Origin: Clostridiales bacterium | GTDB lineage: Bacteria > Bacillota > Clostridia > Lachnospirales > Lachnospiraceae | DNA: 60,079 nt | NCBI GenBank assembly: GCA_021204025.1 | Contig: JAJQAC010000040.1 | Span: forward strand, 1-60,079 | Direction: 5' to 3' | In this document: piece after piece, positions 2,833 to 47,960 of the stretch | Numbering within the stretch: the first letter of the stretch is position 1 | Layout of the letters: each line of letters begins with the position of its first letter | Position numbers and translations under genes: made by a program | The notes under the pieces: generated by a model | Seen by the model: only the letters and a program-made list of their open reading frames with translations | Told to the model about the DNA's origin: nothing | The model's database searches: none

Positions 2833-2908
2833 GTAATTGATAATGAAATCAGCTTACGGGTCATATCCATGCCGCGCACTGTGCTGCGTGGCATGGAGCT
2901 AGTACGTA
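2833..2908. repeat. Insertion with a hairpin inside rpn copy 3
   Basis: Compared with copies 1 and 2 this is a net gain of 70 bases. It contains a hairpin with arms TCCATGCC (2866-2873) and GGCATGGA (2890-2897), extended inward by further pairs. No other copy is seen in the window. The origin is unknown; it is too short for an insertion sequence and could be a small non-autonomous element. Confidence 0.6.
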
Positions 2909-29155: not shown

Positions 29156-29674
29156 TTAAATCTGGTGCGAGGAAATTTCTCTCGCATTCGGGATGAGAGA
29201 GTGGTCGCTGTGATTTTTCTCGTACTCCTCCTCGGTTACCATGCGCAGCGCTCCGGTAGGACAAACCCGGACGCAGGCCGGTTCCATGCCATAGCGGACG
29301 CGCAGATAGCAGCCGTTGCATTTTTCCATCTTGCCCTGGGCGTTGAAGGAAGGAGCGCCGAAGGGACATGCCATGGCGCAGCTGTGGCAGCCGATGCAAT
29401 CGGTATTGTCAAAAACTGTCAGGTCGGTTTCCGGATCCTTTTTCAGGCAGCCCACCGGGCACGCGGTGACGCAGGGAGCCGGAGAGCAGTGCATGCAGGC
29501 GACCGAATAATGAGAAAATACCGGTTTATCTTTTAATTCCCTGTCTTCGAAGATCGTGCGGAAGGGGGCATTGCCCGTCTTCGGATCGTAATCGTTCTGA
29601 TCCATGCAGGCGATGGCGCAGGCGCCGCAGCCGCAGCAGAGAACCGGATCAAAATCAAGAATCATTTTACTCAT
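29156..29674 (-). CDS. Four-cluster 4Fe-4S ferredoxin, electron-transfer subunit
   Basis: A 172-residue polyferredoxin of the DmsB/HybA type with four cysteine groups: CCGCGACAIACMD, CMHCSPAPCVTACPVG, CIGCHSCAMACPFG and CNGC with CVRVCPTGAL. It has no signal peptide or membrane helix. It starts within the last 8 bases of the molybdopterin oxidoreductase gene, so the two subunits are surely coexpressed, carrying electrons between that enzyme and the flavoprotein encoded upstream. Confidence 0.92.
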   Translation of the reverse strand: MSKMILDFDPVLCCGCGACAIACMDQNDYDPKTGNAPFRTIFEDRELKDKPVFSHYSVACMHCSPAPCVTACPVGCLKKDPETDLTVFDNTDCIGCHSCAMACPFGAPSFNAQGKMEKCNGCYLRVRYGMEPACVRVCPTGALRMVTEEEYEKNHSDHSLIPNAREISSHQI

Positions 29675-31814
29675 GGGCTTCTCCTTTTCTGGAAATCCGG
29701 CAGCGGGTAGAGGATCGGAATGCCGGGAATCCGGAGTAGGGATCCAGGCGGTCCTGATGGATCAGATTGCCGTAGTTTGCTTCCCGATAGCCGTGATAGA
29801 GGCTGACCATTCCCCGTGGGATCCTTCTGGAAATCAGGGCAGTTACCGTGATCGAACCGTTAGCGGTGGAGAGCTCAAACAGATCGCCCTCCGCAATGCC
29901 ATGTGCCGCGGCGTCCTCCGGATGGATTTCCGCACTTGCCTTTGGCCGCAGGGTTCGCAGCCAGGAGACGTCATGCAGACGGGAGTGCAGCGCGTTCGGA
30001 AGGCGCCCTCCTTCGGTCAGAAACATCGGATAAAGCGTTTCATCCTCACCCTCGTAGGGAGCGCGGTAGGTCGGGAGCGGATCCAGTCCCCATTCCGGAT
30101 GGGAGGCAATCAGTTCGGATTTCAGTTCGAATTTTCCCGTGGGTGTATTCAGGCCGCGGCTGATGGTAGCGTATTCCTCATGGGGATGGAATTCCGGCAC
30201 TTTCAGGGGAGTATCCGCCTCCTGCAGCTGCTCGACCGAATAGGAAATCGGTGAGAGTATGTAATTCAGGCAGGCCCGGTAGCCGGCCTTCAGAAGCGGA
30301 TCATTGAGGTTCATATAACGCGCCAGGTCGCACATGATGTCGGTGTCCGGCCGGGATTCGTAAAGCGGAGGAATCACCGGTTTGGTGTAATAGGCATAGC
30401 CGCCCGGATAGGATTTGAATTCCTCCCGCTCGAAGGAGCTGCATGCCGGAAGTACGATGTCCGCGTATTTTGCGGTGTCGGTCATGAACAGATCTACATC
30501 TACGAAAAATTCGAGCTCCTCCAGCGCTTTTTTCATGTGCTGGTCGCTGCCCGGAAACATGCGGAAGTTCATGCCGAACGCCAGAAGCGCCTTGATGGGG
30601 TAGGGAGTTCCCTGCCGGATCTGACGTGCCAGGTCCATGGTCTGGGCCTCCTTTTCCAGTTCATTCCAGAGGGGGAAGCGTTGCGCGCCTACGGCCGCCG
30701 CCATGGAGGATTTGCGTGCCTCCCTGACAAATTTGTGCTCCCAGGTGTGATAGCCGGAGGACTGGTGGGTGTAAGTGAAGGGCGCCGGAGTCTGGCCGCC
30801 CTTCCGGTCGTAATTTCCGGTGATCGCGCTCAGCGCCATGATTGCGCGGTAATTCTGCATGCCGTTGGCATGATGTCCCAGCGGCGCGGAGCTTTCCCGG
30901 ATGCTCATCGGCCCGTATTCATGAATCATCTGCGCAGCCTGTTTTACTTTCTCGCAGGGAACGCCGGTGAGCGCTTCTATATTGCCCGCGTGGAAGCCCT
31001 TGCAGTATTCGGCGTACTCCTCAAAGCCATGCACATACTTTTCAATATATTCGTAATCCACCCAGCCGTTGGTAATCAGTTCGTTCGCGATGGCCAGCGC
31101 CAGCGCGCCGTCGGTGCCGGGGCGGGGCTGCAAAAAAAGGTCTGCGATTTTTTCCACGGTCTGGGTGTACATGGTGTCCACAATGATAAACTTTACGCCC
31201 TGCTTTTTCAGACGTTCGGTGTTGCGTGCGCTCAGATAGCCGGTGTAATAGGGATTATGTGCCCATCCGAGGAACAGGCGGGAATTGCGCATGTCCGGAC
31301 GTGCGGGCAGGGCGGTAGCTGTTTCCCATGCCATCAGGCCGGAGGTGAAGCAGGTGCTGGACTCCGTCCCGTAGTTTGGGGAACCGAAGGAGTAGCACAG
31401 GCGCTGCAGAATCGGCCGGTACCATTTGCTGTAGCCGGAAAAGAAGAATACAGACTGGGCGCCGAAGGACTGTTTGTAGCCCAGCAGCTTTTCGGAGATG
31501 GTCTGGTAAGCCTCCTCCCAGCTGATCGGTTCAAACGATCCGCTTCCCCTGGGGCCTGTCCGTTTCAGCGGGGTACGGACGCGATCCTCGCGATAGATAT
31601 ATTGACGGTTGGAAGCGCCCTTGGTGCAGAGAAGTCCGCGGTTCAGAGGATGGTTTTTGTTGCCTTCGATTTTGATAACCACGCCGTCCTTTACGTAGGC
31701 GTCAATGCCGCAGTGCGAACCGGGGGAGCAGATATCGCAGAGCGTATGGCGTATCTCAATGCCGGTTTCCGGGCAGGGGATTTTTGCTTTCAGAAGCTCT
31801 TCTTTAGTTGCCAT
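29667..31814 (-). CDS. Molybdopterin oxidoreductase catalytic subunit (DMSO reductase family)
   Basis: A 715-residue catalytic subunit. An N-terminal 4Fe-4S site is formed by C26, C29, C35 and C63, then come the molybdopterin domains and a C-terminal dinucleotide-binding domain. C155, in ESSTCFTSG, is at the position expected for the metal ligand, suggesting a Cys-ligated Mo or W. There is no twin-arginine signal, so unlike most family members with a DmsB-type partner it should be cytoplasmic. The substrate is unknown. Start ATG 31814 follows GGAGGGCG and overlaps the flavoprotein gene by 11 bases. Confidence 0.9.
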   Translation of the reverse strand: MATKEELLKAKIPCPETGIEIRHTLCDICSPGSHCGIDAYVKDGVVIKIEGNKNHPLNRGLLCTKGASNRQYIYREDRVRTPLKRTGPRGSGSFEPISWEEAYQTISEKLLGYKQSFGAQSVFFFSGYSKWYRPILQRLCYSFGSPNYGTESSTCFTSGLMAWETATALPARPDMRNSRLFLGWAHNPYYTGYLSARNTERLKKQGVKFIIVDTMYTQTVEKIADLFLQPRPGTDGALALAIANELITNGWVDYEYIEKYVHGFEEYAEYCKGFHAGNIEALTGVPCEKVKQAAQMIHEYGPMSIRESSAPLGHHANGMQNYRAIMALSAITGNYDRKGGQTPAPFTYTHQSSGYHTWEHKFVREARKSSMAAAVGAQRFPLWNELEKEAQTMDLARQIRQGTPYPIKALLAFGMNFRMFPGSDQHMKKALEELEFFVDVDLFMTDTAKYADIVLPACSSFEREEFKSYPGGYAYYTKPVIPPLYESRPDTDIMCDLARYMNLNDPLLKAGYRACLNYILSPISYSVEQLQEADTPLKVPEFHPHEEYATISRGLNTPTGKFELKSELIASHPEWGLDPLPTYRAPYEGEDETLYPMFLTEGGRLPNALHSRLHDVSWLRTLRPKASAEIHPEDAAAHGIAEGDLFELSTANGSITVTALISRRIPRGMVSLYHGYREANYGNLIHQDRLDPYSGFPAFRSSTRCRISRKGEAHE

Positions 31815-33081
31815 GACGCCCTCCTTCCAGCTGAAGAATGAATTCTTCGCTTAAGCCTTCTTGTTTCAGGATCCCGCGTTGCATATCCGCGATGGGATGA
31901 TACTGGTTCTGAATGATGCCGAGTATATGATTTTTCAGGATTCCGCTGATGCGGTAGCTGCCGAGAATATTAATTCCGGCGAGCCGGCCGTCGCTGCGGA
32001 CCGCTTCGATCCACAGATCCCTTTCCTTATTTTCAAAGGACAGTTTTTCACCCTGAATCCGGTTGTCGCCGAAGCCGATGAAATCCATGCCGAAAAAGTG
32101 CGTGATATTATGTAAAATGTTGCCGGAGAAGCTTTGTCTGCTTCCACACATGTTTGCTCCGGCGGTGTAGCCCTGATAGGCCGCGTTCGCCCAAAGCCCG
32201 ATGATCTGTGGCTGTCCGTTCTGCAGGTTGCAGCCCTCGCAGCAGTCGCCTGCCGCGTAAATCCCCGGCGCGCTGGTTGCCATGGACGGATCTACGGTGA
32301 TGCCGCGTCCTACGGCAAGGCCGGCCTGGACGGCCAGATCGGTGTTTGCCCGGGTACCAATGCACAGCCCCACAAGATCGGCCGGAAGCAGGGTGCCGTC
32401 AGAACATTCCACGATCGTTTCGGTTTCGGTGCCTTTGCGGATGGCTTTCAGTCCGGCGCTGAATTTCAGGGAGACGCCCTGTGCGCTCAGGCTTTTTTCA
32501 ATCCGGTGAGCAGTGTCCGCATAGGCCGCCAGCGGGAAAATATGGGGCGCCATGTCCGCCAGGGTAGTGGGAATGCCGTTGTTGTGCAGGACCTCCACGA
32601 CCTTGATGCCGGCCATGGAAGCGCCGACTACGACTGCGCGGGTGATGTCGCCATGTTCCAGGCGCCGTTTCAGATCCCTCGCGTTGTCCAGAGTACGCAT
32701 GGAAATGCAGGCTTCGGGACACTCGTTGGTGATGGGCGGAGTGAAGGAACGCGCTCCGGTTGCCAGGACAATGCCGTCGTAGCGGCGCCGCGTGCCGTCC
32801 TCGAGGGTGATTTCACGGTCAGCGGCGTTTAAACCGGTGACTCTTGTATTGGAGAAGACGTTCGCCTTGAAGGTAAACGCGATGTCCTCTGAATTGCCGA
32901 ACGGAAACATCCCCTCATAGCGGAGACGATTTGAGGCATAGTAGGTGGTCAGCATCGGGTTGTAGGGAGGATCCGGATGCTCAGAATAAATATCAATGGT
33001 GGATTCGGTATCGGCGTCGCGGATTGCGGTCAGCGCGTGATAGCCTGCGCAGCCGAAGCCGATGATTGCATAAGCTGCCAT
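31804..33081 (-). CDS. NAD(P)/FAD-dependent oxidoreductase
   Basis: A 425-residue pyridine nucleotide-disulphide-type flavoprotein: an N-terminal FAD motif (AYAIIGFGCAGYHAL), a central NAD(P) motif (AVVVGASMAGIKVVEVL), then GIYAAGDCCEG. It resembles the NADH-binding part of NirB-type and rubredoxin reductases. With the ferredoxin and the molybdenum subunit downstream it would make a soluble NAD(P)H-linked complex. Start 33081 follows GAGAGGAG. Confidence 0.88.
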   Translation of the reverse strand: MAAYAIIGFGCAGYHALTAIRDADTESTIDIYSEHPDPPYNPMLTTYYASNRLRYEGMFPFGNSEDIAFTFKANVFSNTRVTGLNAADREITLEDGTRRRYDGIVLATGARSFTPPITNECPEACISMRTLDNARDLKRRLEHGDITRAVVVGASMAGIKVVEVLHNNGIPTTLADMAPHIFPLAAYADTAHRIEKSLSAQGVSLKFSAGLKAIRKGTETETIVECSDGTLLPADLVGLCIGTRANTDLAVQAGLAVGRGITVDPSMATSAPGIYAAGDCCEGCNLQNGQPQIIGLWANAAYQGYTAGANMCGSRQSFSGNILHNITHFFGMDFIGFGDNRIQGEKLSFENKERDLWIEAVRSDGRLAGINILGSYRISGILKNHILGIIQNQYHPIADMQRGILKQEGLSEEFILQLEGGRHGN

Positions 33082-33099
33082 GGGAATACTCCTCTCTGC

Positions 33100-34326
33100 T
33101 TATTTCTGAAAATGGGAACGGTGCATTCCCGCCAGGTGATCCAGCGCCTGGTTCAGCACATCCCGGTGACATCCGATATTCATTCGCATATAGCCTTCGC
33201 CTCCGGAACCGAAATGGCTGCCGCCGTTGAAGCCCAGATGCCAGGTATGGATCAGCTCGTTCTCCAGTTCCTCATCCGTCAGTCCATACGCACGGAAATC
33301 CAGCCACATCAGGAAGGTTCCTTCCGGCTTCGATACGGCGATGGAAGGAGCCTCCGAGGAAAGTCGGTTGAGCACGAGACGGACATTGTCCTCCAGATAG
33401 GCGATCTGAGCGTCCAGCCACGGTGCGCCGGATGTGTAGGCGGCGATGGAAGCCTCGATCGCCAGTACACTGGGATTGATCAGCCATGCGCTGCGCAGCC
33501 GGGTGCCGATCTGGGCGTTCGCCTGCGGATCCGGGATCACCATGCTGGAAATGCCGAGACCGGAAAGGTTGAAGGTCTTTCCAGGAGCGATGCAGCTGAT
33601 CGCACGCGAATGCCCTTCCGGGATCGCCAAAACCGAGGTATAGCGGCTGCCGAACAGTTCGATGTCGCAGTGAATCTCATCGGACACCAGCCAGACCTGA
33701 TACTGCACACACAGCTTTACCAGGCGTATGATCTCCTCCCTGCTCCACACACGTCCGACCGGATTGTGCGGGTTGCAGAAAATCATCATTTTCACACCCT
33801 CCCGGAACGCCTGCTCCAGACCGTCAAAGTCTATGAGATAGGTGTGGTTTTCGCAGAGCAGAGGATTTTCCACTACGGTACGGCCGGTGCCGCGGATCAC
33901 GGCCTGGAAGGGATCGTAAACCGGGGGCTGAATCAGGATCGGATCGCCGGGCTCTGTCAGGGCCTGTATGGCATAGCTGATGGAGGTGACGACGCCGCCG
34001 CAGCAGCGAATCCATTCTTTTTCCAGAGAAACGCCGTGCCGTGTGGAAAACCAGTCCATGATGCTGGTGAAATAGCGGCTGTCGGGAAAGCTGTAGCCGA
34101 AAATGGGGTGCTCCATGCGTCTGGAGATGGCCTCAACCACCTCCGGGGGGCACGCGAAATCCGTGTCCGCGATCCAGAGAGGAAGAATGTCCTCTTCCTT
34201 GAATTTTCCCCTGCGGCGGTCCCATTTGATGTAGTTGGTGCCAATCCGGCTGATCGGGGTGTGAGAGAAAAGGTCAGGAGGATTGTGAAATGAAAGACAA
34301 ACTTGACAAACTGATGATCCGGGCAT
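33100..34326 (-). CDS. MalY/PatB-type aminotransferase (C-S lyase), 5' end anomalous
   Basis: A PLP fold type I protein of the MalY/PatB family: PHNPVGRVWSREE, the PLP lysine in APGKTFNLSG, and SDEIHCDIELFG. Such enzymes split cystathionine or other cysteine conjugates to pyruvate, ammonia and a thiol. The only in-frame start, ATG 34326, has no ribosome site and adds about 17 residues unlike the family (similarity begins near DLFSHTPISRIGTNYIKWD). It also lies inside the opposite-strand permease gene. The native start was probably removed at a joint near 34.28 kb. Otherwise it heads the five-gene - operon (18 bases to the next gene). Confidence 0.8.
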   Translation of the reverse strand: MPGSSVCQVCLSFHNPPDLFSHTPISRIGTNYIKWDRRRGKFKEEDILPLWIADTDFACPPEVVEAISRRMEHPIFGYSFPDSRYFTSIMDWFSTRHGVSLEKEWIRCCGGVVTSISYAIQALTEPGDPILIQPPVYDPFQAVIRGTGRTVVENPLLCENHTYLIDFDGLEQAFREGVKMMIFCNPHNPVGRVWSREEIIRLVKLCVQYQVWLVSDEIHCDIELFGSRYTSVLAIPEGHSRAISCIAPGKTFNLSGLGISSMVIPDPQANAQIGTRLRSAWLINPSVLAIEASIAAYTSGAPWLDAQIAYLEDNVRLVLNRLSSEAPSIAVSKPEGTFLMWLDFRAYGLTDEELENELIHTWHLGFNGGSHFGSGGEGYMRMNIGCHRDVLNQALDHLAGMHRSHFQK

Positions 34327-35723
34327 TTGCTAAACCGTTGTACCGGATTGCGCTTGTCCTGCTTGGACTTCCCACGTTTGTGGTCGCGTTCCTGGCATAT
34401 ATGTCCCGGAAAGGCCAGGAGGATGCCGGACATCAGGCCATCGTGGAGACTGCCAGGAAGGAGGCGGAGGAAGATGGGAGCCTGAACCGGATACGGGAAA
34501 ACGCCGGGATGTATCTCACGAATAAATATCATCATTTCAATAAGGATACGGACAGCGCTGAGTTCAAAAAGGAACTGGAGCAGCAGATCCGGAAGGACGA
34601 AGAGGCGGAGATCGCAGAGAGAACGAACCAGATTTATCAGAGAGACGGCCTGAAAAAGCGCCCGACCTTTATTGAATTCCTGTGCGGCTGCCTGAATAAT
34701 CAGGGGCTGCTGGTACTTTCGGTTATCACCTCGCTGCCCATGTATGTGTTGCTGCTGATTTCGGCAAACCCGTACAGCCGGTACATATTTGAACGACTGA
34801 TCATGATGATCTTCGTGGCTTTCGGTGTGGTATTCGTCGTATTTACGATTCTGCATTTTGCTTCCTCGGATCCGGCGGTAAACGTCCTGGGCGAGACAGC
34901 GACCGCGCAGCAGATCGCGGACTTCAATCGTGTGTACGGGCTGGATCAGCCGTATATCATTCAGCTGCTCCAGAACTTTAAGAACCTTGCTACATTCAAT
35001 CTGGGAAATTCCTACTCAGGCAACGAGGACGTAATGGCGGCCATTCTGAGAAAATTCCCGGTAACTCTGGAAATGAGCGTTTACGCGTTCCTGATCGCGG
35101 TGGTGATTTCCATCCCGATCGGTATCCTGACGGCGGTAAAACCGAATACCGCGTTTGATTATGTTTTCATGTTTATCGCGTTGGTGGGTCTGTCGCTTCC
35201 GGCGTTCTGGTTTGGTATGCTTCTGATTCTGACCTTCTCCATCAACAATCATATCCTTCCGGCGTCCTATGTGGAAGGAAATAAGCTGTCGCTGCTCATG
35301 CCCGCGATTGTGTCCGGTACGCATCTGGCCGCGAGCCTGGCGCGGAATACCAGATCCGCGCTGCTGGAGGTGCTGGGACAGGATTACATTGTCACCGCGA
35401 AGGCGAAGGGTCTGAGCAATGTGCGTGTGATTGCCAAACATGCGCTTGGCAACGCCCTGATTCCCATCGTAACCGTGGCCGGACTGCAGTTCGGCGGCAG
35501 CCTGGGCGGCTCGGCGGTTATCGAGAAGGTATTCAACGTAAAGGGTATCGGAAGTTATGTCGTGGATAAACAGTTCCTCCCGGATATTCCGGCTATTTTA
35601 GGCGGCGTGGTCTATGTGTCCATCATCATCAGTCTTGTAAACCTGGCAGTGGATCTGATTTATGTGTATCTGGATCCCCGCATCAAGTCGAGACTGAAGA
35701 GCCCAAGGAGGAAAAAACTATGA
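34290..35723 (+). CDS. DppB-type peptide ABC permease with N-terminal extension
   Basis: A 477-residue permease. Residues about 163-477 are a normal DppB/OppB inner-membrane domain (FASSDPAVNVLGE, GLDQPYIIQ, the EAA-type loop near DYIVTAKAKGLS). The first 160 residues are extra: a membrane helix at about 18-38, a charged cytoplasmic coiled stretch (42-128) rich in E, K and R, and a second helix at about 139-158. AGGAGG (34275-34280) gives a good start at 34290. It overlaps the next gene by 4 bases. A second permease and the ATPases are not in the window. Confidence 0.85.
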   Translation: MKDKLDKLMIRAFAKPLYRIALVLLGLPTFVVAFLAYMSRKGQEDAGHQAIVETARKEAEEDGSLNRIRENAGMYLTNKYHHFNKDTDSAEFKKELEQQIRKDEEAEIAERTNQIYQRDGLKKRPTFIEFLCGCLNNQGLLVLSVITSLPMYVLLLISANPYSRYIFERLIMMIFVAFGVVFVVFTILHFASSDPAVNVLGETATAQQIADFNRVYGLDQPYIIQLLQNFKNLATFNLGNSYSGNEDVMAAILRKFPVTLEMSVYAFLIAVVISIPIGILTAVKPNTAFDYVFMFIALVGLSLPAFWFGMLLILTFSINNHILPASYVEGNKLSLLMPAIVSGTHLAASLARNTRSALLEVLGQDYIVTAKAKGLSNVRVIAKHALGNALIPIVTVAGLQFGGSLGGSAVIEKVFNVKGIGSYVVDKQFLPDIPAILGGVVYVSIIISLVNLAVDLIYVYLDPRIKSRLKSPRRKKL

Positions 35724-37564
35724 AGAAAAGAAGATTGGCAGCGTTGGCTCTGTGCGTGTCGGCAGCAGCGTCCATGACCGCATGCAATGTCCAGACCAAA
35801 AGCGATATGACCAGTGCGGCCGCCGCTGAAAATCAGGCATCTGCGGAAGCGGATCCCAACGCGGATGTGGAAATCGGCGAAGTAAACTTAAAGCTGCTGT
35901 ACAACAGCAGTGATGAGAGCATAGCAAACGTTATCCGCGATGAGCTGACAAAGGCCGGTATCACCGTGGAGATGAGCGCGGCATCAGACGGCGCTGCCTT
36001 CCGTGAGCAGGAGGGCAACGGCAACTTTGATATTGCTGTGTCCAGCTGGGCGAACCCGGTAGGAACTCCGGACTACGGCTGCCGCGGCATCTGGGAGTCT
36101 GTCGGCGACAGCAATCTGACCGGCATCAATGACGAAAAGCTGGATGAGCTGATCAATCAGGCGGCTGCGGAAACTGCGGACGTTTACGTAGAGACCTATG
36201 GAGAAGCAGAGAGATATGTGGTCGAGGAACAGGTTTACATGACTCCGCTGTATATTTCGATGACCGGACGTGCCAGCAGCAATATCCTGAACCAGGACAC
36301 CATCACCAATAACCAGAGATGGGAAAAGCTGGATTATGCAGACGAATCTCTGCGTGATACCCGCACCCTGGTTCTGACCCAGACCGGTTCCACCATCACC
36401 ACCTGGGATCCGATCCGTGCGGACGATCAGAGTTCCGGTTACGCTCTGGATGAGATGTACGTACATCTGCTGACCCTGCAGCCGGACTGGTCTGTGAGCA
36501 CAGATTCCTCTCTTTCCTATAATTACGCGGTGTCGGATGACAACAGCTCCTATTATTTTATCCTGAGAGACGATTGCGGCTTCGCGAGAATCGATGCGGA
36601 CGGCAACGTATATGACTCCGGTGTAAAGGTAGCGGCAGAGGATGTTGTTTATTCCCTGAACCGTGCGAAGGATCCGGATTCTACCGCAATGCACAAGACC
36701 TACAGCATGTACACCAACCTGGATACCGTTGAGATCGTGACCGACATCGAGGAGCTCGATAGCGTTAAGACCGCGGGAGGTACGAGTGTGCGTGAGGTTC
36801 TGGAAGCGGACATCACCCCGATTGAGACCCTGGCGGCAACCAGAGATGAGGTTGACAACGCGGCCGGCAGCTATCAGGTAGTGCGCTGCAATACGACCGT
36901 TCCCTATCCGCAGATTCTGAACTGCCTGACCTTCCATGGCGCGGGCATTGTGGACAGCGAGTGGGTTGAGGCTATGAACGAAGGCGTGGATTACTCCACT
37001 TATGACGCGACAAAGGATAAGCTGTACGGAGATTCCGTTACCACCGTTGAGGGAGCAACCTATGACAATCAGCTGTCTCTGAGCGGAAACTATGTGCTGA
37101 CCTCCATGAATGACTATCAGATGAACTTTGTGGCGAACCCGTATCTGCGCACCAACGATCCGGACTGTACGAAGATCAAGATCCTGACCGATAGATTTAT
37201 TGCTGATACGGATACTGCGCTTTCTGCTCTGAGAAGCGGAGAGGTGGATCTGCCTTACAGCATTCCGTCCACTAAATATGATGTGGTGGAACAGGATGAG
37301 AATCTGAACCTGACAAAGTTCCCTGGTATCCGCGCTTACATGCTGGCTTTCAATATGCATGGCAATTCGATTGTTTCAGATTCTGTTGATCTGAGAAAGG
37401 CGGTTGCATCCGCGATCAAATACGAGGACATCAGCGCTGTACTGGCAGGCAACACCATCGAGTGCTACAGCCCGCTGAGTACCTGTCTGGACGCCGGAAA
37501 CAAGCTGTCCTATCAGGCAGGAGACACCGAGAAATATCTGAGAGCTTATTTCGCGAATAAATAA
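35720..37564 (+). CDS. Circularly permuted family 5 solute-binding lipoprotein
   Basis: A 614-residue lipoprotein: signal with lipobox SMTAC (C22), then an A/E/S-rich linker to about 50. Residues 51-205 match what is normally the C-terminal third of OppA/DppA-type proteins (VNLKLLYNSSDESIA, then NFDIAVSSW, then VYMTPLYIS). Residues 213-340 match the normal N-terminal part (TLVLTQTGSTITTWDP, then EDVVYSLNRAKDPDS), and 370-614 the middle, ending at SYQAGDTEKYLRAYFANK, just where the normal protein would run into the LLYNSSDE segment. Old N and C termini are thus joined and new ends opened. The ligand is presumably a peptide. It is coupled to the permease (ATGA overlap). Confidence 0.85.
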   Translation: MKKRRLAALALCVSAAASMTACNVQTKSDMTSAAAAENQASAEADPNADVEIGEVNLKLLYNSSDESIANVIRDELTKAGITVEMSAASDGAAFREQEGNGNFDIAVSSWANPVGTPDYGCRGIWESVGDSNLTGINDEKLDELINQAAAETADVYVETYGEAERYVVEEQVYMTPLYISMTGRASSNILNQDTITNNQRWEKLDYADESLRDTRTLVLTQTGSTITTWDPIRADDQSSGYALDEMYVHLLTLQPDWSVSTDSSLSYNYAVSDDNSSYYFILRDDCGFARIDADGNVYDSGVKVAAEDVVYSLNRAKDPDSTAMHKTYSMYTNLDTVEIVTDIEELDSVKTAGGTSVREVLEADITPIETLAATRDEVDNAAGSYQVVRCNTTVPYPQILNCLTFHGAGIVDSEWVEAMNEGVDYSTYDATKDKLYGDSVTTVEGATYDNQLSLSGNYVLTSMNDYQMNFVANPYLRTNDPDCTKIKILTDRFIADTDTALSALRSGEVDLPYSIPSTKYDVVEQDENLNLTKFPGIRAYMLAFNMHGNSIVSDSVDLRKAVASAIKYEDISAVLAGNTIECYSPLSTCLDAGNKLSYQAGDTEKYLRAYFANK

Positions 37565-37579
37565 AAAGGAAGCATTGGT

Positions 37580-39100
37580 ATGAATAGACAGGAACTGGTC
37601 AGACAGCTGGACGCGTATATCGACTCCCACAGAGCGAAGATTCTGGAGGACTGGAAAAGTCTGGTGAGGATCCCCAGCGTCAGTGTGGAGGGAACCGAAG
37701 AAAAACCCTTTGGGGAGGCGTGTGCGCGTATACTGGATCACGCGCTTGCGATGGCGGATCAACGAGGATTTGCAGTCAATAACCACGGTAACTGGTACGG
37801 CACCGCTTTCCTGGAGAGCCGGAAAGAGGGAGAAGGGATCATCGGTATCTTTTCCCATCTGGATGTAGTGGAGCCGGGCGAGGGATGGACCTATGACCCC
37901 TTTGAGCCGTTGGAGAAGGACGGATTTCTGATCGGCAGGGGGGCCGGTGACAACAAAAGCGGCGTGATTATTGGTCTGTACACCATGCAGGCGATCAAGG
38001 AGCTTGGCATTCCGCTGGGAAGCAATCTGATGCTGTATTTTGGATGCAATGAGGAAGCGGGGATGAAGGATGCCGAGCGCTTCGCCAAAGAGCATGTGAT
38101 GCCGGACTATTCCATGGTTCCTGATCTCTTTTTCCCGGTATGTTATGGAGAGAAGGGCAGTCTGAGACTGACCCTTCAATCCACCTCCGGTTTTTCTCAG
38201 ATTACCGGATTTTCCGCCGGCAAGGCGGAAAACATGATTCCGGCGAGCGCTTCCGCTGAGATTGCTTTTTCGCGGCCGCTTTATGAGGAGGCCGTTCGTC
38301 TGGCAGAAGGCCGCACGGATATTGAAGTTCTGGAAAAAAGTAATAAAATAGTAATAACCTCCGCGGGCGTAGGCGGTCACAGCGCGATGCCCGCGGGATC
38401 GGTAAACGGCATCTGGCTTCTGGTGGATTTCCTGAAGGATCTGACGGCGCTGGCAGAATCAGACCGGAAGATCTGCGCTGCGCTGGCGGATTTTTCCGGA
38501 GACAGCGACGGCAGCGCTCTGGGGATTGCCTGGGAGGATGAACCGTCCGGCAAGCTGGTATGCGCGGCAACAGTCGCGCGCATGGACGGCTCGATCCCGG
38601 AGGCGCTCTTTTCAATCCGTTATCCAGTGACCGATTACAGAGAGCGCATAGAAACGGAGCTTTTGCGGGTGATCGGAAGCAGAGGCTTCGCGGTGAAGCA
38701 TATAGTGAACAACGACCCGATGTATATGGAAAAGGATGAACCCTATATCCGGCGTCTGATGAAGGTTTATCACGAGGTGACGGGGAAACCGAACGAGCCT
38801 TATGTGATCGACGGAGGAACCTACGCCAGAAAACTGAAGCACGCGGTCGGTTATGGCGGCGGCAACGGCGTCAGGGCTCCGTTTCTGCCAAAGGGACACG
38901 GCGGAGTCCATCAGCCGGACGAGGCCAGGAGCATCGACGGAGTTCTGGAGGCGATCCGGATTTACGTGCTTTCCGCTATGGAGATTGATGCCATGATTCA
39001 GGAGGAACGAAAAGAGAAGGGACAAAGGAAAAATGAATCACGCGATGGTGATTGCCGGGGTGAAGTGAGACAGAATGGGAGGAATTGGAATGAAGATTAA
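37580..39100 (+). CDS. M20 family dipeptidase (PepV/Sapep-like)
   Basis: A metallopeptidase of about 480 functional residues with the M20 metal sites (GIFSHLDVVEPGEGW, GRGAGDNKSG, GCNEEAGMKD) and a lid domain insertion. It should hydrolyse dipeptides delivered by the neighbouring transporter. ATG 37580 follows AAAAGGAAG. The last 20-odd residues (after ERKEKGQ) are low-complexity charged sequence running over the start of the esterase gene (11-base overlap), which suggests the original stop was lost. Confidence 0.87.
   Translation: MNRQELVRQLDAYIDSHRAKILEDWKSLVRIPSVSVEGTEEKPFGEACARILDHALAMADQRGFAVNNHGNWYGTAFLESRKEGEGIIGIFSHLDVVEPGEGWTYDPFEPLEKDGFLIGRGAGDNKSGVIIGLYTMQAIKELGIPLGSNLMLYFGCNEEAGMKDAERFAKEHVMPDYSMVPDLFFPVCYGEKGSLRLTLQSTSGFSQITGFSAGKAENMIPASASAEIAFSRPLYEEAVRLAEGRTDIEVLEKSNKIVITSAGVGGHSAMPAGSVNGIWLLVDFLKDLTALAESDRKICAALADFSGDSDGSALGIAWEDEPSGKLVCAATVARMDGSIPEALFSIRYPVTDYRERIETELLRVIGSRGFAVKHIVNNDPMYMEKDEPYIRRLMKVYHEVTGKPNEPYVIDGGTYARKLKHAVGYGGGNGVRAPFLPKGHGGVHQPDEARSIDGVLEAIRIYVLSAMEIDAMIQEERKEKGQRKNESRDGDCRGEVRQNGRNWNED
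39031..39066 (+). other. Eleven-codon reading frame inside the M20 tail
   Basis: ATG at 39031 opens MNHAMVIAGVK then a stop, after a weak AAAGGA. It looks like the beginning of a protein and may be a relic; it could be chance. Confidence 0.2.
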
Positions 39101-40001
39101 TTTGCATCCCCACTATAAGGCAGTTGAGGCCGCGGATATGGGAGAAACACAGGCAATGCTGCGGCGTTATAAGAAACCGGAGGAAATGAACATCGAAGAG
39201 AGAACAGTGCCTGGGCTTGACGGCGATCCGGATATCGAAATCCGTATTTTCCGGCCGGGATACGCGCCTGCGGGCAGCCCGATGATCATGGATATCCACG
39301 GAGGCGGTTTTACCGGCGGAGACTACAATCTGGATAACAACCGCGCGAGTCATCTGGCAATGAATATTCCGGCGATTGTGGCGTCCTTCAACTACCGCCT
39401 GGCGCCTCAGCATGTTTTCCCCGCCGCGCTCAATGACTGCCGGGCAGTCTGGTACTGGATGCATGACCATGCGAAGGAACTGGGCGGAGATCCGGAGCGT
39501 ATGGGTCTGTTCGGAACCAGCGCGGGAGGCAATATGTGCGCGGGACTGGCATTTTATATCCGGGATCACGGCGGACCGAAGATTTCTCTCAATGCCATCA
39601 ATGTTCCGGCAGTAGGCGTAGGACCGTCTCTGTCTGCGGAACAGATGCGGGAGGATGCGCCGACGCTGAAAGGAGAAAATCTCTCCTCGGCCTTTCATGA
39701 ATATGTGGGCGGCTTCAGCGGCGGTTTCAATGGACAGATCCCGTCCTATTACGCGATTCCGAACCTGGCGATCGACTATTCGAACCTGCCGCCGACTGCG
39801 ATTATCGTCGCGGAGTACGATCCGTTGCGGGAGGAGGGCTTGAAATACGCGCACCGTCTGATGAAGGACGCCGTTCCGGTGGAGCTTTATCTGATGCCGC
39901 GCGTGGGCCACGGCTTTGACGCGGTCAAGGACGCGCCCATGACTCAGTGGATCTGGAACGGACTTGTCATGTCGTTCCAGCGGGAATTCGGAATGCTGTA
40001 G
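39090..40001 (+). CDS. Alpha/beta hydrolase, acetyl-esterase (HSL family) type
   Basis: A 303-residue esterase/lipase of the hormone-sensitive lipase family: oxyanion box HGGGF, nucleophile in GTSAGG, acid in EYDPLREEG and histidine in VGHGFD. Cytoplasmic. It hydrolyses short acyl esters; the natural substrate is unknown. ATG 39090 follows GGGAGG. The sequence immediately after its stop codon is a fragment of an unrelated surface-protein repeat. Confidence 0.88.
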   Translation: MKINLHPHYKAVEAADMGETQAMLRRYKKPEEMNIEERTVPGLDGDPDIEIRIFRPGYAPAGSPMIMDIHGGGFTGGDYNLDNNRASHLAMNIPAIVASFNYRLAPQHVFPAALNDCRAVWYWMHDHAKELGGDPERMGLFGTSAGGNMCAGLAFYIRDHGGPKISLNAINVPAVGVGPSLSAEQMREDAPTLKGENLSSAFHEYVGGFSGGFNGQIPSYYAIPNLAIDYSNLPPTAIIVAEYDPLREEGLKYAHRLMKDAVPVELYLMPRVGHGFDAVKDAPMTQWIWNGLVMSFQREFGML

Positions 40002-40377: not shown

Positions 40378-42057
40378 ATGGAACACTGGTGGAAGGAAGC
40401 AGTCGTTTATCAGATCTACACAAAAAGTTATTATGACACAAATGGCGACGGAATCGGCGACCTGCGGGGAATTATTCAGAAGCTGGATTATATTAATTCA
40501 CTGGGCGCCAGCGTGATCTGGCTGAATCCGATTTATAAATCTCCGGATGTCGATAACGGATATGATATAGCGGATTATCAGAGCATAGATGAGCGATACG
40601 GGACACTGGAAGATTTTAAAGAGTTGTTAACTCAGGTTCATCAACGCGGTATGCGTCTGATTATGGACATGGTACTGAATCACACCTCAGACGAACACCG
40701 TTGGTTTCAGGAGTCGAGAAGCTCAAAGGATAACCCTTACCGGGATTATTATATCTGGAGGCCGGGAAAGGATGGCAAAGAGCCAAACAACTGGGGAAAT
40801 TATTTCTATGAGGGCCGGGGGTCAGCGTGGGAATATGATGAACATACAGGCGAATACTATCTGCATAATTATTCCAGGAAAATGCCGGATCTGAATTGGG
40901 ACAATGCTGATTTGCGTGACGCGATGTGCCGGATGATGCGCTGGTGGCTGGATCTGGGTGTGGATGGTTTCCGCATGGACGCAATTAACCGCCTAGTCAA
41001 GCCGAAAGGACTGCCGGATTCCCCAAATCCGCTCACTCCTCCGGTGGGGATTTACGGCTATGTCGTTGATCGGACCATGTGCGCAAACCGACCGGGTATC
41101 CATGAACTGCTTCATGAATTAAATGAGAAGGTATTCAGCCGCTACGATATTATGGTGGTAGGAGAAACGGGTAATGTCGACGCGGCGATAGCGATTGATT
41201 ACGTAAAAGAAGAGCGGGAAGAAATCGATATGGTCTTTCATTTTGAGATCGCTAAAAATCCGGTTCTTGTGGATGCGGTCAAATTTAAGGAGGTGCAGCG
41301 GCGCTGGTATCATGTTGTTGAGCAGCATGGATGGATTACCCAGTATCTCTCGAATCACGATACGCCGAGACAGGTTTCCCGGTTTGGCGATGATCAGAAA
41401 TACCGGTATGAATCTGCGACAATGCTGGCGACGTTGATGCATACGCATCCGGGGACTGTGTATATTTACCAGGGGGAAGAGATCGGGATGACAAACGTGG
41501 AGTTCCCTTCGATTGAATATTATAACGAAAAATATACGGTCGGAAAATATTATACCATGGTAGAAAGCGGCAGATCACCCGAAGAGGCGCTTGCGTCTCT
41601 GCGGATGATGAGCCGGGATAATGACCGGACGCCCATGCAGTGGAACAGCGGGGAAAACGGAGGTTTTACGACTGGTTCGCCCTGGATGCATGTCAACCCC
41701 AATTATGTCAGTATCAATGTGGCGGAGGAGGAATGCGCGGAAAAGTCAGTTCTGCGTTATTACAGGAAACTGACCGCCATGCGCAGACAATACCCGATTA
41801 TGGTTTATGGCTCCTATCGGCAGATTATGGAGGAAGACCCTGAGTTGATTGTCTATGTGAGGGAATATCAGGGAGACCGATGGCTGATCGTCTGTAATTT
41901 TTACGACGGCATACGGGAACTTTCAGGGATAGTAAAAGCGTATCCGGAGATGGAGAAGAGAGAACTGATTTTGTGTAACTACCTGTCAATGGAAAATGAA
42001 CAGGAAATACGGCCATATGAAGCAAGAATCTATTGTCTGAGAGACAGAAAAATATAG
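40378..42057 (+). CDS. GH13 alpha-glucosidase (oligo-1,6-glucosidase subfamily)
   Basis: A 559-residue cytoplasmic alpha-glucosidase with the (beta/alpha)8 barrel signatures: nucleophile D201 in GFRMDAIN, acid/base E263 in VVGETGN, stabiliser D328 in LSNHDTPR, and a TNGDGIGDLRGI start. It releases glucose from short alpha-glucosides. The residue after the nucleophile is Ala, not the Val typical of strict isomaltases, so alpha-1,4 or mixed specificity is plausible. ATG 40378 follows TGGAGGGAG. It precedes the GH31 gene by 17 bases. Confidence 0.93.
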   Translation: MEHWWKEAVVYQIYTKSYYDTNGDGIGDLRGIIQKLDYINSLGASVIWLNPIYKSPDVDNGYDIADYQSIDERYGTLEDFKELLTQVHQRGMRLIMDMVLNHTSDEHRWFQESRSSKDNPYRDYYIWRPGKDGKEPNNWGNYFYEGRGSAWEYDEHTGEYYLHNYSRKMPDLNWDNADLRDAMCRMMRWWLDLGVDGFRMDAINRLVKPKGLPDSPNPLTPPVGIYGYVVDRTMCANRPGIHELLHELNEKVFSRYDIMVVGETGNVDAAIAIDYVKEEREEIDMVFHFEIAKNPVLVDAVKFKEVQRRWYHVVEQHGWITQYLSNHDTPRQVSRFGDDQKYRYESATMLATLMHTHPGTVYIYQGEEIGMTNVEFPSIEYYNEKYTVGKYYTMVESGRSPEEALASLRMMSRDNDRTPMQWNSGENGGFTTGSPWMHVNPNYVSINVAEEECAEKSVLRYYRKLTAMRRQYPIMVYGSYRQIMEEDPELIVYVREYQGDRWLIVCNFYDGIRELSGIVKAYPEMEKRELILCNYLSMENEQEIRPYEARIYCLRDRKI

Positions 42058-42074
42058 AGTGAAAGGGGTATTTT

Positions 42075-44558
42075 ATGAGTAAACTGGATGAAAGATTTCG
42101 ACTGGGGCTGGATGGACGCTGTAACCCGGACTGTGTTGTGCAGGGGCCGGATTATCGCTTTACGGTTCTGACGCCGCAGATGCTGCGTATGGAGTATTCC
42201 CGTGATGGGGCTTTTGAGGATCGTCCGACGCAGACTGTGTGGAACCGGAACTTTGATCGTCCGGTTTTCCGCGTTCAGGACAGCGCGGACTGCGTGGAAA
42301 TCGATACCGAATATTTTCATTTGTTTTATGACAAAAAGGGATTTTCGCAGAATCATCTGTATATTGACGTTAAATATGCGTTTACTAATTACGGTGGCAG
42401 ATGGTATTATGGCAGGACGGATTATGGAAATCCTCCCAGGGAACATAATCTGAAGGGGACGGCCAGGACACTGGACCGCTGTAACGGGCAGTGGTATGAG
42501 GGCAGTAATTTACTGGAACGGGTGAGAGCGGAAGGCGGGAAAATCAATCGCTGCGATGGGGATGTGGATCTGGGCCGGGGTCTGTGCGATACGAGCGGAC
42601 GTACCTTTTTTGATGACAGCAAATCCCTTGTCATTGATGAAGACGGTTGGGTACATCCACGATCGGGAGACTGCACAGACATTTATTTCTTCGGTTATGG
42701 CCGGGATTATTTTCGGGCGATTCATGATTTTTATCAGCTTTCCGGTCCCGTTCCGATGCTGCCTAAGTACGCGCTTGGAAACTGGTGGAGCCGCTACTGG
42801 AAATATACAGAAAAAAGCTATATGGAGCTTCTGACACGGTTTCAGCAGGAGGATATTCCCTTTACGGTAGCAGTAATTGATATGGACTGGCATCTGGTTG
42901 ATATTCCCGAAAAGTTTGGGAAAGGCTGGACCGGGTATACATGGAATCGCGAACTTTTCCCGGATCCGAAACGTTTTTTGGACTGGCTGCATGAACACGG
43001 ATACCGGATTACATTGAACCTTCATCCCGCGGACGGGGTACGGGCATTTGAGGAGCAGTATCTGGAAATGGCAAAAGCTCTTGGCGTGGATCCGGCGTCG
43101 GAGGATCCTGTGCGGTTTGATTTTACGAATATAGAATTTATAGAAGCTTATTTTAAGTACCTGCATCATCCGAATGAGGAAGCAGGTGTTGATTTCTGGT
43201 GGATGGACTGGCAGCAGGGGAATGTTTCCGCGGTTGAAGGTCTGGATCCCATGTGGATGCTGAATCATTATCACCATTATGACCGGAAGCGGGACGGAAA
43301 AAGAGCAATCATGCTGTCCCGATACAGCGGGCTGGGCAGTCAGCGATATCCGATCGGATTTTCCGGCGATGTCCATATGACATGGGATTCTCTGGAATTT
43401 CAGCCGTATTTTACGGCGACGGCGGCGAATGTCGGGTATACCTGGTGGAGTCATGATGTCGGCGGTCATTTAAATGGAGTGCGGGACAATGAACTCTATA
43501 TCCGATGGCTGGAACTGGGAGTTTTTTCTCCGGTCAACCGGCTGCACAGTAACAGCAATCCGTTTTGTGCAAAGGAGCCATGGAGGTATCCGAAGCCATA
43601 TGACGATATTGCCGCTGGTATTTTACGGCTTCGTCACCGTCTGATTCCCTATTTGTATACGATGAACTATCAGTGCCATCAGGAATTAAAACCGGTTGTC
43701 GTTCCTGCTTATTATTATTATCCGATGGAGCCGGGCAGCTATCAATATCGCAATGAATATTTCTTTGGGAGTGAATTGCTGGTACAGCCTATGGTTCACC
43801 CGACAGATCCTCAGACTGGTTATACATTCGAAGAAACCTGGCTTCCAGCTGGTCTGTGGACGGATATCTATACAGGCCGGCTGTATGACGGAGGCATCAG
43901 AGGAAGGAATATGACGATTGGTCGTCCGATCGAACAGCAGGGAGTTCTTGCAAAACCAGGGGCAATCATTCCGATGTCCGCTTATCAGGCGGGGGAAAAT
44001 GGGATCGAAAATCCGCAGACCCTGGAAATCTATGTATTCCCGGGCGGGAATAATCAGTTTTGTCTGTTTGAGGACACGGGCGACGGTTTTGAGTACGAGC
44101 AGGGGGTCTGCCTGAAAACAGAAATGACATTAAAATGGGAAGATAATCATGCTGTATTTCAGATGGCCGCTGAGGGAGATTACTCAGTTATTCCGGAAAA
44201 ACGTCATTATCAACTGCATTTCAGAGGCTTTGCCGATGTGGAGAACATTGTGGCGAACGGCTGTTTTGAGCGAAGTTATGACGGAAAGACACACACGCTG
44301 ACATTGTTTTTCCGGGACAGAGATCCGGCTTGTCCGCTTACAGTCACACTTCGCGGAGCGCTTAAGCAGGATAACAGGGATCTGAAAGAACGGGTTTTTG
44401 CTTTCCTGGATGGTGTACAGGGAAGCACGGTTATGAAGAACGCAATCTATCAGTGCTTTGAGAGCGAATTGTCTCCGGAACGGCTGGTCAGCGCGGTAAT
44501 GGCATTAAATCCGCCGGATGGGTGGAAGAAAGCGCTTCTGGAGATGGTAGCCTGCTGA
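42075..44558 (+). CDS. GH31 family alpha-glycosidase
   Basis: An 827-residue GH31 enzyme with an N-terminal beta-sandwich, a catalytic barrel with nucleophile D378 (FWWMDWQQG) and acid/base D432 (GFSGDVHMTW), the WWSHDVGGH stretch, and a C-terminal beta domain plus about 80 extra residues (a small helical tail after LTVTLRGALK). No signal peptide. The family includes alpha-glucosidases and alpha-xylosidases; the substrate is not decided, but pairing with GH13 and a sugar transporter suggests branched alpha-glucans or isomalto-oligosaccharides. Confidence 0.92.
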   Translation: MSKLDERFRLGLDGRCNPDCVVQGPDYRFTVLTPQMLRMEYSRDGAFEDRPTQTVWNRNFDRPVFRVQDSADCVEIDTEYFHLFYDKKGFSQNHLYIDVKYAFTNYGGRWYYGRTDYGNPPREHNLKGTARTLDRCNGQWYEGSNLLERVRAEGGKINRCDGDVDLGRGLCDTSGRTFFDDSKSLVIDEDGWVHPRSGDCTDIYFFGYGRDYFRAIHDFYQLSGPVPMLPKYALGNWWSRYWKYTEKSYMELLTRFQQEDIPFTVAVIDMDWHLVDIPEKFGKGWTGYTWNRELFPDPKRFLDWLHEHGYRITLNLHPADGVRAFEEQYLEMAKALGVDPASEDPVRFDFTNIEFIEAYFKYLHHPNEEAGVDFWWMDWQQGNVSAVEGLDPMWMLNHYHHYDRKRDGKRAIMLSRYSGLGSQRYPIGFSGDVHMTWDSLEFQPYFTATAANVGYTWWSHDVGGHLNGVRDNELYIRWLELGVFSPVNRLHSNSNPFCAKEPWRYPKPYDDIAAGILRLRHRLIPYLYTMNYQCHQELKPVVVPAYYYYPMEPGSYQYRNEYFFGSELLVQPMVHPTDPQTGYTFEETWLPAGLWTDIYTGRLYDGGIRGRNMTIGRPIEQQGVLAKPGAIIPMSAYQAGENGIENPQTLEIYVFPGGNNQFCLFEDTGDGFEYEQGVCLKTEMTLKWEDNHAVFQMAAEGDYSVIPEKRHYQLHFRGFADVENIVANGCFERSYDGKTHTLTLFFRDRDPACPLTVTLRGALKQDNRDLKERVFAFLDGVQGSTVMKNAIYQCFESELSPERLVSAVMALNPPDGWKKALLEMVAC

Positions 44559-44649
44559 TTTTTAATGAAAACAAACCGGATTTTCTTAAAAAATGTTCAG
44601 ATTGCAATAAATTAATGCAAAAAGCATAAAAATCGCCAAAAAACCGCCA

Positions 44650-44678
44650 TTCATTTTTGCAAAACAAACAAATATAAT
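44650..44678 (+). promoter_or_regulatory. Promoter of the sugar ABC transporter genes
   Basis: TTCATT (44650-44655), 17-base spacer, TATAAT (44673-44678). Just upstream, TTGCA and TGCAA half-sites in an AT-rich stretch may be an operator. Confidence 0.45.
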
Positions 44679-44715
44679 GAAAGAAAGTAATCAGTACGTA
44701 AGGAGGTTATCTATT

Positions 44716-46029
44716 ATGAAAAGGGTATTAGCATTATCAACGGCGGTTATCCTGATAGCGGGAAGCATGGCGGGATGTTCCGGCGGTTCCGGGACGGCCG
44801 CAACTCAGGCGGCTGCAGAGACGCAGTCCGCAGAGACGGAAGCGCAGGTGGCTGAGAGCGGAAACCTGACGGGAGAACTTGCAGTTATGGTAAACAATGC
44901 GTTTACCGGTATGGAGGATCCCGCGATTATGCGCGCGGCAAAGGCGTTTGAAGAAGCGAATCCGGGCGTTACCATTACGATCGAGGGACTTGGGAGCAGC
45001 GACCTGATCAGCAAATATACGACGTCCGCAATGGCCGGTTCGGGGCCTGATGTGGTGGCGCTGGATAATTCGGGCTGGCCGATTGATCTGGCGGCAATGG
45101 GATTGATTATCCCTCTGGACGAGCAGATTGCGTCATCGGGGAATGATTATCTGCAGGGTCCACTGGAGTCTGGCTTGTATGAGGGACAGTATTATTCGGT
45201 ACCGTGGTATTTTAACAATACAGGACTTTATTATAATAAGAGAATTCTGAGTGAAATCGGCAAGACGGAGCCGCCGACGAACTGGGAAGAATTTGAGGAA
45301 GACATAAAGCTGGCAACTGAGCTGGGGTATGCCGGAGTATCTACCCGGCTGGATGGATACGCAATTTTCAATATTTTCTTTGAAAATGATAATCCGGTGA
45401 TCGACGTTTCCGGTGATCGTCCGGTGGTAACGGTGAATGAGGAGTCCGGAAAAGAAGCGTTTGAATTCTGGACCGGTCTGCATACCAAATACCATGCGTT
45501 CCCGGAAGGAATGAAGGATGCTTCGGACTGGGCAACAGCTTATACGACTTTTGTGTCGGATGATTGTCTGTTCTTTATCTGCGGAGACTGGGGATATGCC
45601 AATATAGCAAGTGGAAATCCGGATATGGAATTCGGACTGGCTCCGATGATTCAGGGCAGTGTGCAGGCAGTATGCCTGGGCGGATATAATCTGGCGATCA
45701 ATTCCAACTGCACAAATCCGGAACTGGCATGGGCTTTCGTCGATTATCTGACCAGCAAGGAATGTGATTATGTCATGTCCGAACAGGGACGAATCCCGGG
45801 CAGGACGGATGTGGATTACGAGCCGATTCTGGAAATCAACCCGGATTATCAGGTGTTTATTGACGAGGCAGCTTATACCGTGCCGAGACCGCGTGTGAAA
45901 AACGCAGCGTCTGTGGATGTGAAAATGGTTGATGCTTTCAAAAAAGTATTCTTTGATCAGATGTCCGCGGAACAGGCGCTTAACGAGCTGGAAACAGAGT
46001 TAAATGATTTCATCAATGAAAATTATTAA
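44716..46029 (+). CDS. Sugar ABC transporter substrate-binding lipoprotein (family 1)
   Basis: A 437-residue family 1 binding protein (MalE/MsmE type). Signal MKRVLALSTAVILIAGSMAG with lipidated cysteine in AGCSGG, a short A/T/E linker, then two lobes. ATG 44716 follows AGGAGGT; upstream in-frame codons are not used. Binds oligosaccharides, probably alpha-glucosides given the neighbours. A hairpin after the gene may hold down expression of the permeases. Confidence 0.92.
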   Translation: MKRVLALSTAVILIAGSMAGCSGGSGTAATQAAAETQSAETEAQVAESGNLTGELAVMVNNAFTGMEDPAIMRAAKAFEEANPGVTITIEGLGSSDLISKYTTSAMAGSGPDVVALDNSGWPIDLAAMGLIIPLDEQIASSGNDYLQGPLESGLYEGQYYSVPWYFNNTGLYYNKRILSEIGKTEPPTNWEEFEEDIKLATELGYAGVSTRLDGYAIFNIFFENDNPVIDVSGDRPVVTVNEESGKEAFEFWTGLHTKYHAFPEGMKDASDWATAYTTFVSDDCLFFICGDWGYANIASGNPDMEFGLAPMIQGSVQAVCLGGYNLAINSNCTNPELAWAFVDYLTSKECDYVMSEQGRIPGRTDVDYEPILEINPDYQVFIDEAAYTVPRPRVKNAASVDVKMVDAFKKVFFDQMSAEQALNELETELNDFINENY

Positions 46030-46103
46030 CACAGTCTGCTGGGCTTGCCTATACGAAACATAGGCAAATGAACAGCTGACCATCAAAGATGCTTGACAGC
46101 GGT

Positions 46104-46143
46104 AACCGCCATTTGCCGTGGCTGATACAGGCGGGTGGCGGTT
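46104..46143 (+). promoter_or_regulatory. Intercistronic hairpin between binding protein and permeases
   Basis: AACCGCCA (46104-46111) pairs with TGGCGGTT (46136-46143), then TTCCTTTT. A leaky terminator or mRNA stabiliser, as often seen after binding-protein genes. Confidence 0.55.
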
Positions 46144-46169
46144 TCCTTTTGCCTGGGAGGAGAAGCCTG

Positions 46170-47087: not shown

Positions 47088-47100
47088 GAAAGGAAATGGC

Positions 47101-47928: not shown

Positions 47929-47960
47929 TTTTCCGGCAGCGGTAAAAAGAGGATAGCGGT

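Follow-up and report, generated by a model that had tools for sequence, protein, structure and literature searches.

A putative circular permutation in a family 5 solute-binding lipoprotein of Lachnospiraceae and its relatives in Clostridia and Bacilli

The stretch of DNA analyzed here (positions 1 to 60,079 of contig JAJQAC010000040.1, assembly GCA_021204025.1, from a Clostridiales bacterium of the Lachnospiraceae), hereafter the window, encodes a lipoprotein of 614 residues that belongs to the family 5 solute-binding proteins (SBPs). The segment that ends ordinary proteins of this family comes first, and it is followed by their N-terminal and middle parts. Judging from sequence comparisons, we are almost certain that this order results from a circular permutation. 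Taken as a whole, the explanation that we favor, with good confidence, is a true and inherited permutation of an SBP of the peptide/glutathione type, found together with a transporter whose permeases are extended.

Block order of the binding protein

The gene and its parts are as follows.

35720..37564, forward strand: putatively circularly permuted family 5 solute-binding lipoprotein of 614 residues (open reading frame without internal stop; Pfam and rotation tests)
35720..35785, forward strand: lipoprotein signal, ending in ..SMTAC at Cys22 (read off the sequence; we take the motif at Cys22 to be a lipobox)
35786..35869, forward strand: low-complexity linker, residues 23 to 50, seen in the sequence and of variable length among nine aligned proteins
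35870..36334, forward strand: block with which ordinary SBPs end, residues 51 to 205, profile positions 296 to 364 and beyond (structure, genome-scan, and profile alignments)
36320..36367, forward strand: predicted joint of the old C-terminus and the old N-terminus, about residues 201 to 216 (rotation-scan optimum at 200 to 220)
36335..37561, forward strand: block that forms the N-terminal and middle parts of ordinary SBPs, residues 206 to 614, profile positions 10 to 254, with the new C-terminus at its end (Pfam, genome scan, and rotation)
36743..36871, forward strand: extra segment, about residues 342 to 384, present in nine aligned permuted proteins and without counterpart in the ordinary SBP L001

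The protein is a member of PF00496 (SBP_bac_5) by homology, with a score of 116.4 bits (cut-off, 32.4), and this is the only Pfam family above its cut-off. The best stretch, residues 269 to 591, corresponds to profile positions 10 to 252. In a scan of the genome, profile positions 296 to 364 matched at 35897 to 36103 of the window (residues 60 to 128; 30.3 bits, alone just below the cut-off), that is, upstream of positions 10 to 254, which departs from the collinear order of the profile. The comparison with solved structures gave the same picture: residues 226 to 333, 494 to 572, and 60 to 190 of the window SBP match residues 25 to 120, 210 to 286, and 342 to 476 of 7kz8, respectively, and 4toz repeated the permuted order when searched with a profile of nine sequences (independent E-value of the C-terminal block, 5.6e-10). 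Several single pieces of these structure matches are weak alone, such as those of 5.9 and 6.3 bits in 7kz8. Judging from the 4toz match and from relatives that keep the order down to 31% identity, the order of the blocks exceeds chance. The original prediction, made from the letters of the window, had placed the usual C-terminal segment ahead of the N-terminal and middle parts; Pfam, the genome scan, 7kz8, and 4toz agree with it, and its borders (51 to 205 and 206 to 614) fit the best cuts of the profile rotation described below. Part of the moved block (residues 64 to 169; window 35909 to 36226) also touches the Pfam family OpuAC, of another SBP group, under its cut-off (17.2 bits; cut-off, 21.2).

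Rotation tests

A set of 16 permuted proteins, including that of the window (14 after the hhalign filter; the partial rows L046 and G772 [L060/L073] were excluded from the 16), was compared by profile-profile alignment with 20 ordinary SBPs from the same genus, which were left from 33 loci after removal of 1 for its length and of 12 that were more than 80% alike. The native order scored 270.8 over 296 columns against the ordinary-SBP profile, and the score rose to 397.2 (E = 1.8e-51) when the permuted proteins were made to start at residue 200 to 220. Cuts at 190 and 180 scored 396.3 and 393.6, respectively, and those at 500 and 550 scored 252.2 and 218.2. With the cut at 206 and a mact value of 0.1, the alignment covered 459 columns, from position 55 to 525 of the 529-residue template.

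Tests on single sequences pointed in the same direction. The best-domain score rose on rotation in all 16 permuted proteins (from 67.6 to 134.3 bits for that of the window), while 7 of 8 ordinary controls, scored with leave-one-out profiles, were best at their native start and the eighth was in a virtual tie six residues off. Owing to the weak match of its N-terminal part, the window sequence alone gave a broad plateau, and the cut point was taken from the profile-profile scan. When the blocks were reordered before a search of the PDB, the match to 7kz8 went from 4e-9, in pieces, to 3.2e-12, in one match of 261 residues spanning the rejoined point.

A fusion that put the tail of one SBP gene before the head of a different one is improbable in our view. 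A second-gene origin was considered for another permuted SBP, TpMglB-2 of Treponema pallidum (PMC4990184), and the C-terminal block of the window protein does find its best structure matches in MppA and AapF, against YliB and others for the remainder, but together the two blocks amount to a single complete SBP, free of repeats and gaps, and the joint is common to all 16 proteins. No repeated block was seen in the profile alignment of the permuted SBPs, in which no search was aimed at remnants of a duplication, and no tandem-duplication intermediate was noticed among the loci opened, again without a dedicated search.

Relatives and distribution

The same order was found in 15 further proteins, whose identity to the window SBP ranges from 85 to 31%. 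The closest are L039 (85%), L040 (82%), L041 (76%), L042 (75%), L043 (73%), L044 (70%), and L045 (69%), and the more distant ones include L071 (43%), L069 (42%), L064 to L067 (40%), L070 (38%), and L075 (31%). Among their sources are two isolates, Clostridium sp. MCC353 (L041) and Clostridium sp. chh4-2 (L042), the single-contig genomes G1122 and G1161 (6.5 and 6.6 Mb), the closed Metabacillus plasmid NZ_OK052578, and Staphylococcus aureus-associated contigs deposited as phage. Although the source genome is a draft of 91 contigs with an operon that lacks genes present in relatives, these records leave next to no chance that a normal gene was cut and rejoined in one genome by an error of assembly or binning, and they exclude, for the permutation, the assembly rearrangement hiding a normal gene that the original prediction had itself raised; such an error may account for the two apparent deletions described below. 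The joining of the old termini and the opening of new ones are backed both by the rotation tests and by relatives. The assumption that family 5 is otherwise collinear held for ordinary SBPs (the profile of 20 proteins and the 8 tested singly), but the permuted form is a whole clade.

In a tree of the rotated permuted proteins and the ordinary ones, the 16 permuted proteins fell on one side of a branch (Shimodaira-Hasegawa-like approximate likelihood ratio test [SH-aLRT], 100). The window SBP aligns with this clade, named here after the GisD protein of S. aureus, over the full length and in the same order (16 of 16 rows). Such a single branch fits one origin without proving it, and we regard a single origin of the permuted SBPs as probable. 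Full-length permuted SBPs were present in 3 of the 24 genomes searched in the genus, 4 of 397 in the family, 2 of 391 in the class (one of the two being partial), and 4 of 398 in the phylum, the source genome being counted each time; the family, class, and phylum scans were run at an E-value of 1e-60, with no more than three candidates scored in each genome. The type is rare. A viral or mobile origin was considered and rejected: viral contigs were scanned and yielded no confirmed relative, and the two "phage" records are unannotated, one of them with an operon like gis, the S. aureus operon compared below. These two records, L075 (OR845000) and L074 (OR849883), are filed as Staphylococcus phages; L075, which carries the whole gis-like operon, is probably a contig of the host chromosome.

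Permeases with N-terminal extensions

Directly upstream of the SBP gene lies a permease gene with an unusual beginning.

34290..35723, forward strand: permease B, 477 residues, with core Pfam domains from residue 164 (family search)
34290..34772, forward strand: N-terminal extension of permease B, in which a loop of about 100 residues lies between two additional hydrophobic segments (alignment and profile search)

The extension puts about 160 residues ahead of the known domains, of which a stretch of about 100 is charged, and it is conserved in ten aligned proteins, including that of the window. Its profile matched in 4 of 397 genomes of the family, which are the same 4 that have a permuted SBP; in both searches of these genomes the same 20 are listed as having no match, and the other 373 stand outside the listing. 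Three of the matches are strong (E = 2.3e-58 or better). The probability that four of four would co-occur by chance is about 1e-9 if the shared ancestry of the four genomes is ignored. The extended permeases of the GisD-type clade are found as permease B in the window and, for permease C, in L041 and other relatives. About 230 residues precede the known domains of the L041 permease C; ahead of the BPD_transp_1 core there are 320 residues in L041 versus about 200 in L075. When 299 genomes of the phylum were searched with the L041 permease-C extension, only G862, which has a permuted SBP, matched most of it among the matches listed. The possibility that the permease extension is a known domain was rejected, the best match to a solved structure having an E-value of 0.16.

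The first core helix of such permeases usually starts inside the cell. If it does so here, helix parity would place the loop of permease B outside, and there the loop might serve to dock or clamp the permuted SBP. A charge test of the side of the loop was ambiguous, and 2 of its 13 rows (L041 and L042) picked the core helix and were unusable. In L071 (14543 to 15844, reverse strand), the permease B of G008 departs from the family sequence at its C-terminal end in a frameshift-like manner.

Gene neighborhood

Three further genes flank the permease and SBP genes.

33100..34326, reverse strand: PatB-type C-S lyase, divergent from permease B (TIGR04350, 432 bits; cut-off, 340)
37580..39100, forward strand: M20 dipeptidase of the Sapep group, 506 residues (TIGR01887, 313 bits; cut-off, 208)
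39075..40001, forward strand: alpha/beta hydrolase (Abhydrolase_3; family search)

The operon of L041 and L042 comprises permease B, permease C, two ATPases, the permuted SBP, an M20 dipeptidase, a PepC-like peptidase, and an alpha/beta hydrolase, some of these members being named by position, length, and likeness only. PatB scored above its cut-off in the window, L068, and L071, and the Sapep dipeptidase in the window, L041, and L071. In L068, PatB is near permease B, with a LysR-like gene (identified by eye) in between; in L071, it directly follows the SBP on the same strand and is itself followed by the dipeptidase. The gene next to the SBP in L069 carries PF03313, a domain known from L-cysteine desulfidases. 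L075 has, in this order, a divergent two-domain ATP-binding cassette (ABC) ATPase, two permeases, the SBP, and a gamma-glutamyl transpeptidase (Ggt). No ggt was found among the seven genes of the window submitted to family searches (29667 to 40001), and the single Ggt of this genome is on contig C33.

On the reverse strand of the window (29667 to 34326), consecutive genes that diverge from the SBP operon encode a molybdopterin oxidoreductase, a pyridine-nucleotide oxidoreductase, and PatB. L068, from another genus, has similar neighbors, the last one cut, and these genes possibly form a linked sulfur redox pathway. Farther away, the forward strand carries two glycoside-hydrolase-like genes, followed by genes for an SBP of the sugar type, for two permeases, and for a two-component pair (40378 to 51207; assigned by eye), as well as three highly similar tandem open reading frames of 298, 279, and 270 residues (313 to 3721).

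Apparent deletions and fate of the window copy

Comparison with relatives places two apparent deletion joints at the locus.

35703..35704, no strand: joint between permease B and the SBP, where permease C and the ATPases D and F are missing (relatives compared)
39043..39074, no strand: second joint, where the PepC-like peptidase (PF03051) is missing that stands here in L039, L040, L041, and L042

The piece missing at 35703 measures about 3.5 kb in L041, and permease B now overlaps the start of the SBP by four bases. L043 likewise has no PepC-like gene at that place. The window has permease B alone at the locus instead of the two permeases and two ATPase domains of a complete importer of the Opp/Dpp type. 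Neither an extended permease C nor close copies of D or F were found elsewhere in the assembly; other systems of the genome have ATPases and a core-type permease C, 41 to 48% identical over the core. Since permease C and both ATPases are absent, import by this system is probably lost or run with borrowed subunits.

Between the window SBP and that of L039, the nonsynonymous divergence (dN) is 0.095 and the synonymous divergence (dS) is 1.45. The gene is under purifying selection, with dN far below a dS that is saturating. The dN values to four outgroups are larger for the window SBP than for that of L039, whose contig keeps the ATPase genes: 0.123 versus 0.099 for L040, 0.170 versus 0.160 for L041, 0.173 versus 0.152 for L042, and 0.199 versus 0.179 for L043. 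The difference (0.010 to 0.024, in 4 of 4) corresponds to a mild acceleration at most, dS being near saturation. Either the loss of permease C and the ATPases is recent or the SBP is still used.

That the window copy is no longer part of an importer, and persists as a relic or as a ligand-binding surface lipoprotein, has in our estimation nearly an even chance. The missing subunits and the slightly higher dN than that of the intact L039 speak for it, but the reading frame is open, dN remains far below dS, and permease B was kept too; the loss may be recent, and the ATPases and core-type permease C of other systems may serve.

Proposed transporter and its substrate

In the explanation that we favor, inherited permutation, the old N- and C-termini would have been joined by a short linker, and new termini would have opened after ..EKYLRAYFANK and before EIGEVNLKLLYN.., i.e., between ..YLRAYFANK and LKLLYN, so that the lipid anchor would now be attached to what is the C-terminal part of ordinary SBPs. 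Most simply, the permutation would have arisen once, before the versions of Clostridia and Bacilli split or before a transfer between them. The anchored SBP may capture small cysteine-containing peptides, such as glutathione, its disulfide, or Cys-Gly conjugates, and pass them to permeases B and C, powered by the two ATPases. Inside the cell, the Sapep dipeptidase and the PatB lyase would degrade these peptides to amino acids and a thiol or sulfide. We tentatively raise the possibility that these systems are a distinct class of peptide importers of Firmicutes, in which a rewired binding protein carries its anchor on the opposite lobe and has co-evolved with N-terminal extensions acquired by both permeases.

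Cysteine-containing peptides are suggested by the neighboring PatB C-S lyase and Sapep dipeptidase, and a thiol peptide (glutathione or cysteinyl peptides) is, by a little, the likelier kind of substrate. Glutathione processed by Ggt was rejected as a general route, given the genomes without Ggt counted below.

Several observations weigh against this explanation. The fold of the permuted form is predicted from sequence. The gain in the PDB search was modest, with 17 entries at E ≤ 0.001 in native order versus 15 after reordering (signal and linker removed). The permuted rows are on a long branch (1.31), which can inflate their grouping, and the trees of the SBP and of permease B have 7 of 10 splits in common. 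The fourth match of the permease B extension, in G317, is a partial one that takes in 83 of 158 positions (E = 1.6e-8), and it lies on a contig other than that of the SBP. As for the substrate, among nine genomes with a permuted SBP, five have no Ggt match, the source genome has its one elsewhere, and three have two each, also elsewhere. Ggt adjoins the SBP in L075 only, for which reason it is PatB and the dipeptidase that speak for glutathione as the substrate of the copies in Lachnospiraceae. The SBP of L070 adjoins a glycoside hydrolase, and the models of SapA, NikA, and GsiB match the window SBP about equally, far under their cut-offs.

These equal scores and the five genomes without Ggt would suit a different small molecule (an opine, a nickel chelate, a murein peptide, or another peptide), to which we assign a lesser yet substantial share of the probability. 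The positions of PatB, directly after the SBP in L071 and near it in the window and L068, argue against it, as do the dipeptidase and the ggt beside the SBP in L075.

If true, inherited permutation would give the peptide-binding branch of SBPs a natural circular permutation of large size. The pairing with extended permeases makes the reason for it testable, as the position of the anchor and the contact with the permease are separable by experiment. A rare type of importer in gut Clostridia would also gain a signature by which its sequences can be recognized.

Comparison with known systems

The closest known system is GisABCD-Ggt of S. aureus, which is laid out as gisA and gisBCD-ggt (PMC10355420) and for which binding or import of glutathione (GSH) and its disulfide (GSSG) was published; growth of S. 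aureus on low GSH depends on it (PMC12510641). The gene layout of L075 is like that described for gis (PMC10355420). Its SBP gene lies between a permease gene and ggt, and its permease B is extended. The L075 SBP shares the permuted order and aligns with 96% of the window protein, at 30.7% identity. L075 is tied to gis by gene order and families rather than by accession, and its record is filed as an unverified phage contig. GisD of S. aureus apparently belongs to the permuted clade. If GisD is indeed built permuted, the modelling of its pocket and docking would be affected; the strings "circular" and "permut" are absent from the main texts of both GisD papers (PMC10355420 and PMC12510641). 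Where GisABCD-Ggt has a fused ATPase and ggt, the operons of Clostridia that were inspected carry two ATPases as separate genes, and a dipeptidase. Their set of importer, dipeptidase, and C-S lyase resembles the staphylococcal route reported to free thiols from Cys-Gly conjugates (PMC11742315), although the window dipeptidase differs from the enzyme of that route (156 bits versus a cut-off of 1025).

Family 5 SBPs belong to cluster C, and the members GsiB/YliB, DppA, OppA, and MppA have homologous blocks in the ordinary order. TpMglB-2 is a natural circularly permuted SBP, for which the name "Type Ic / Cluster Bc" was proposed, and like the window protein it is described as lipid anchored and as having relatives in Gram-positives (PMC4990184). 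It differs in having a glucose-binding cluster B fold in which strands of the N-lobe moved, whereas about 155 residues moved in the window SBP. Circular permutation was also reported within the glycine-betaine-binding proteins (PMC2395249), an SBP group different from that of the window protein and compared here via Pfam only. A circularly permuted family 5 SBP was not found among the papers listed by searches of an open-access library for permuted SBPs. Permuted SBPs were thus already known in other clusters, and what appears to be new, on the evidence of sequence, is circular permutation in family 5.

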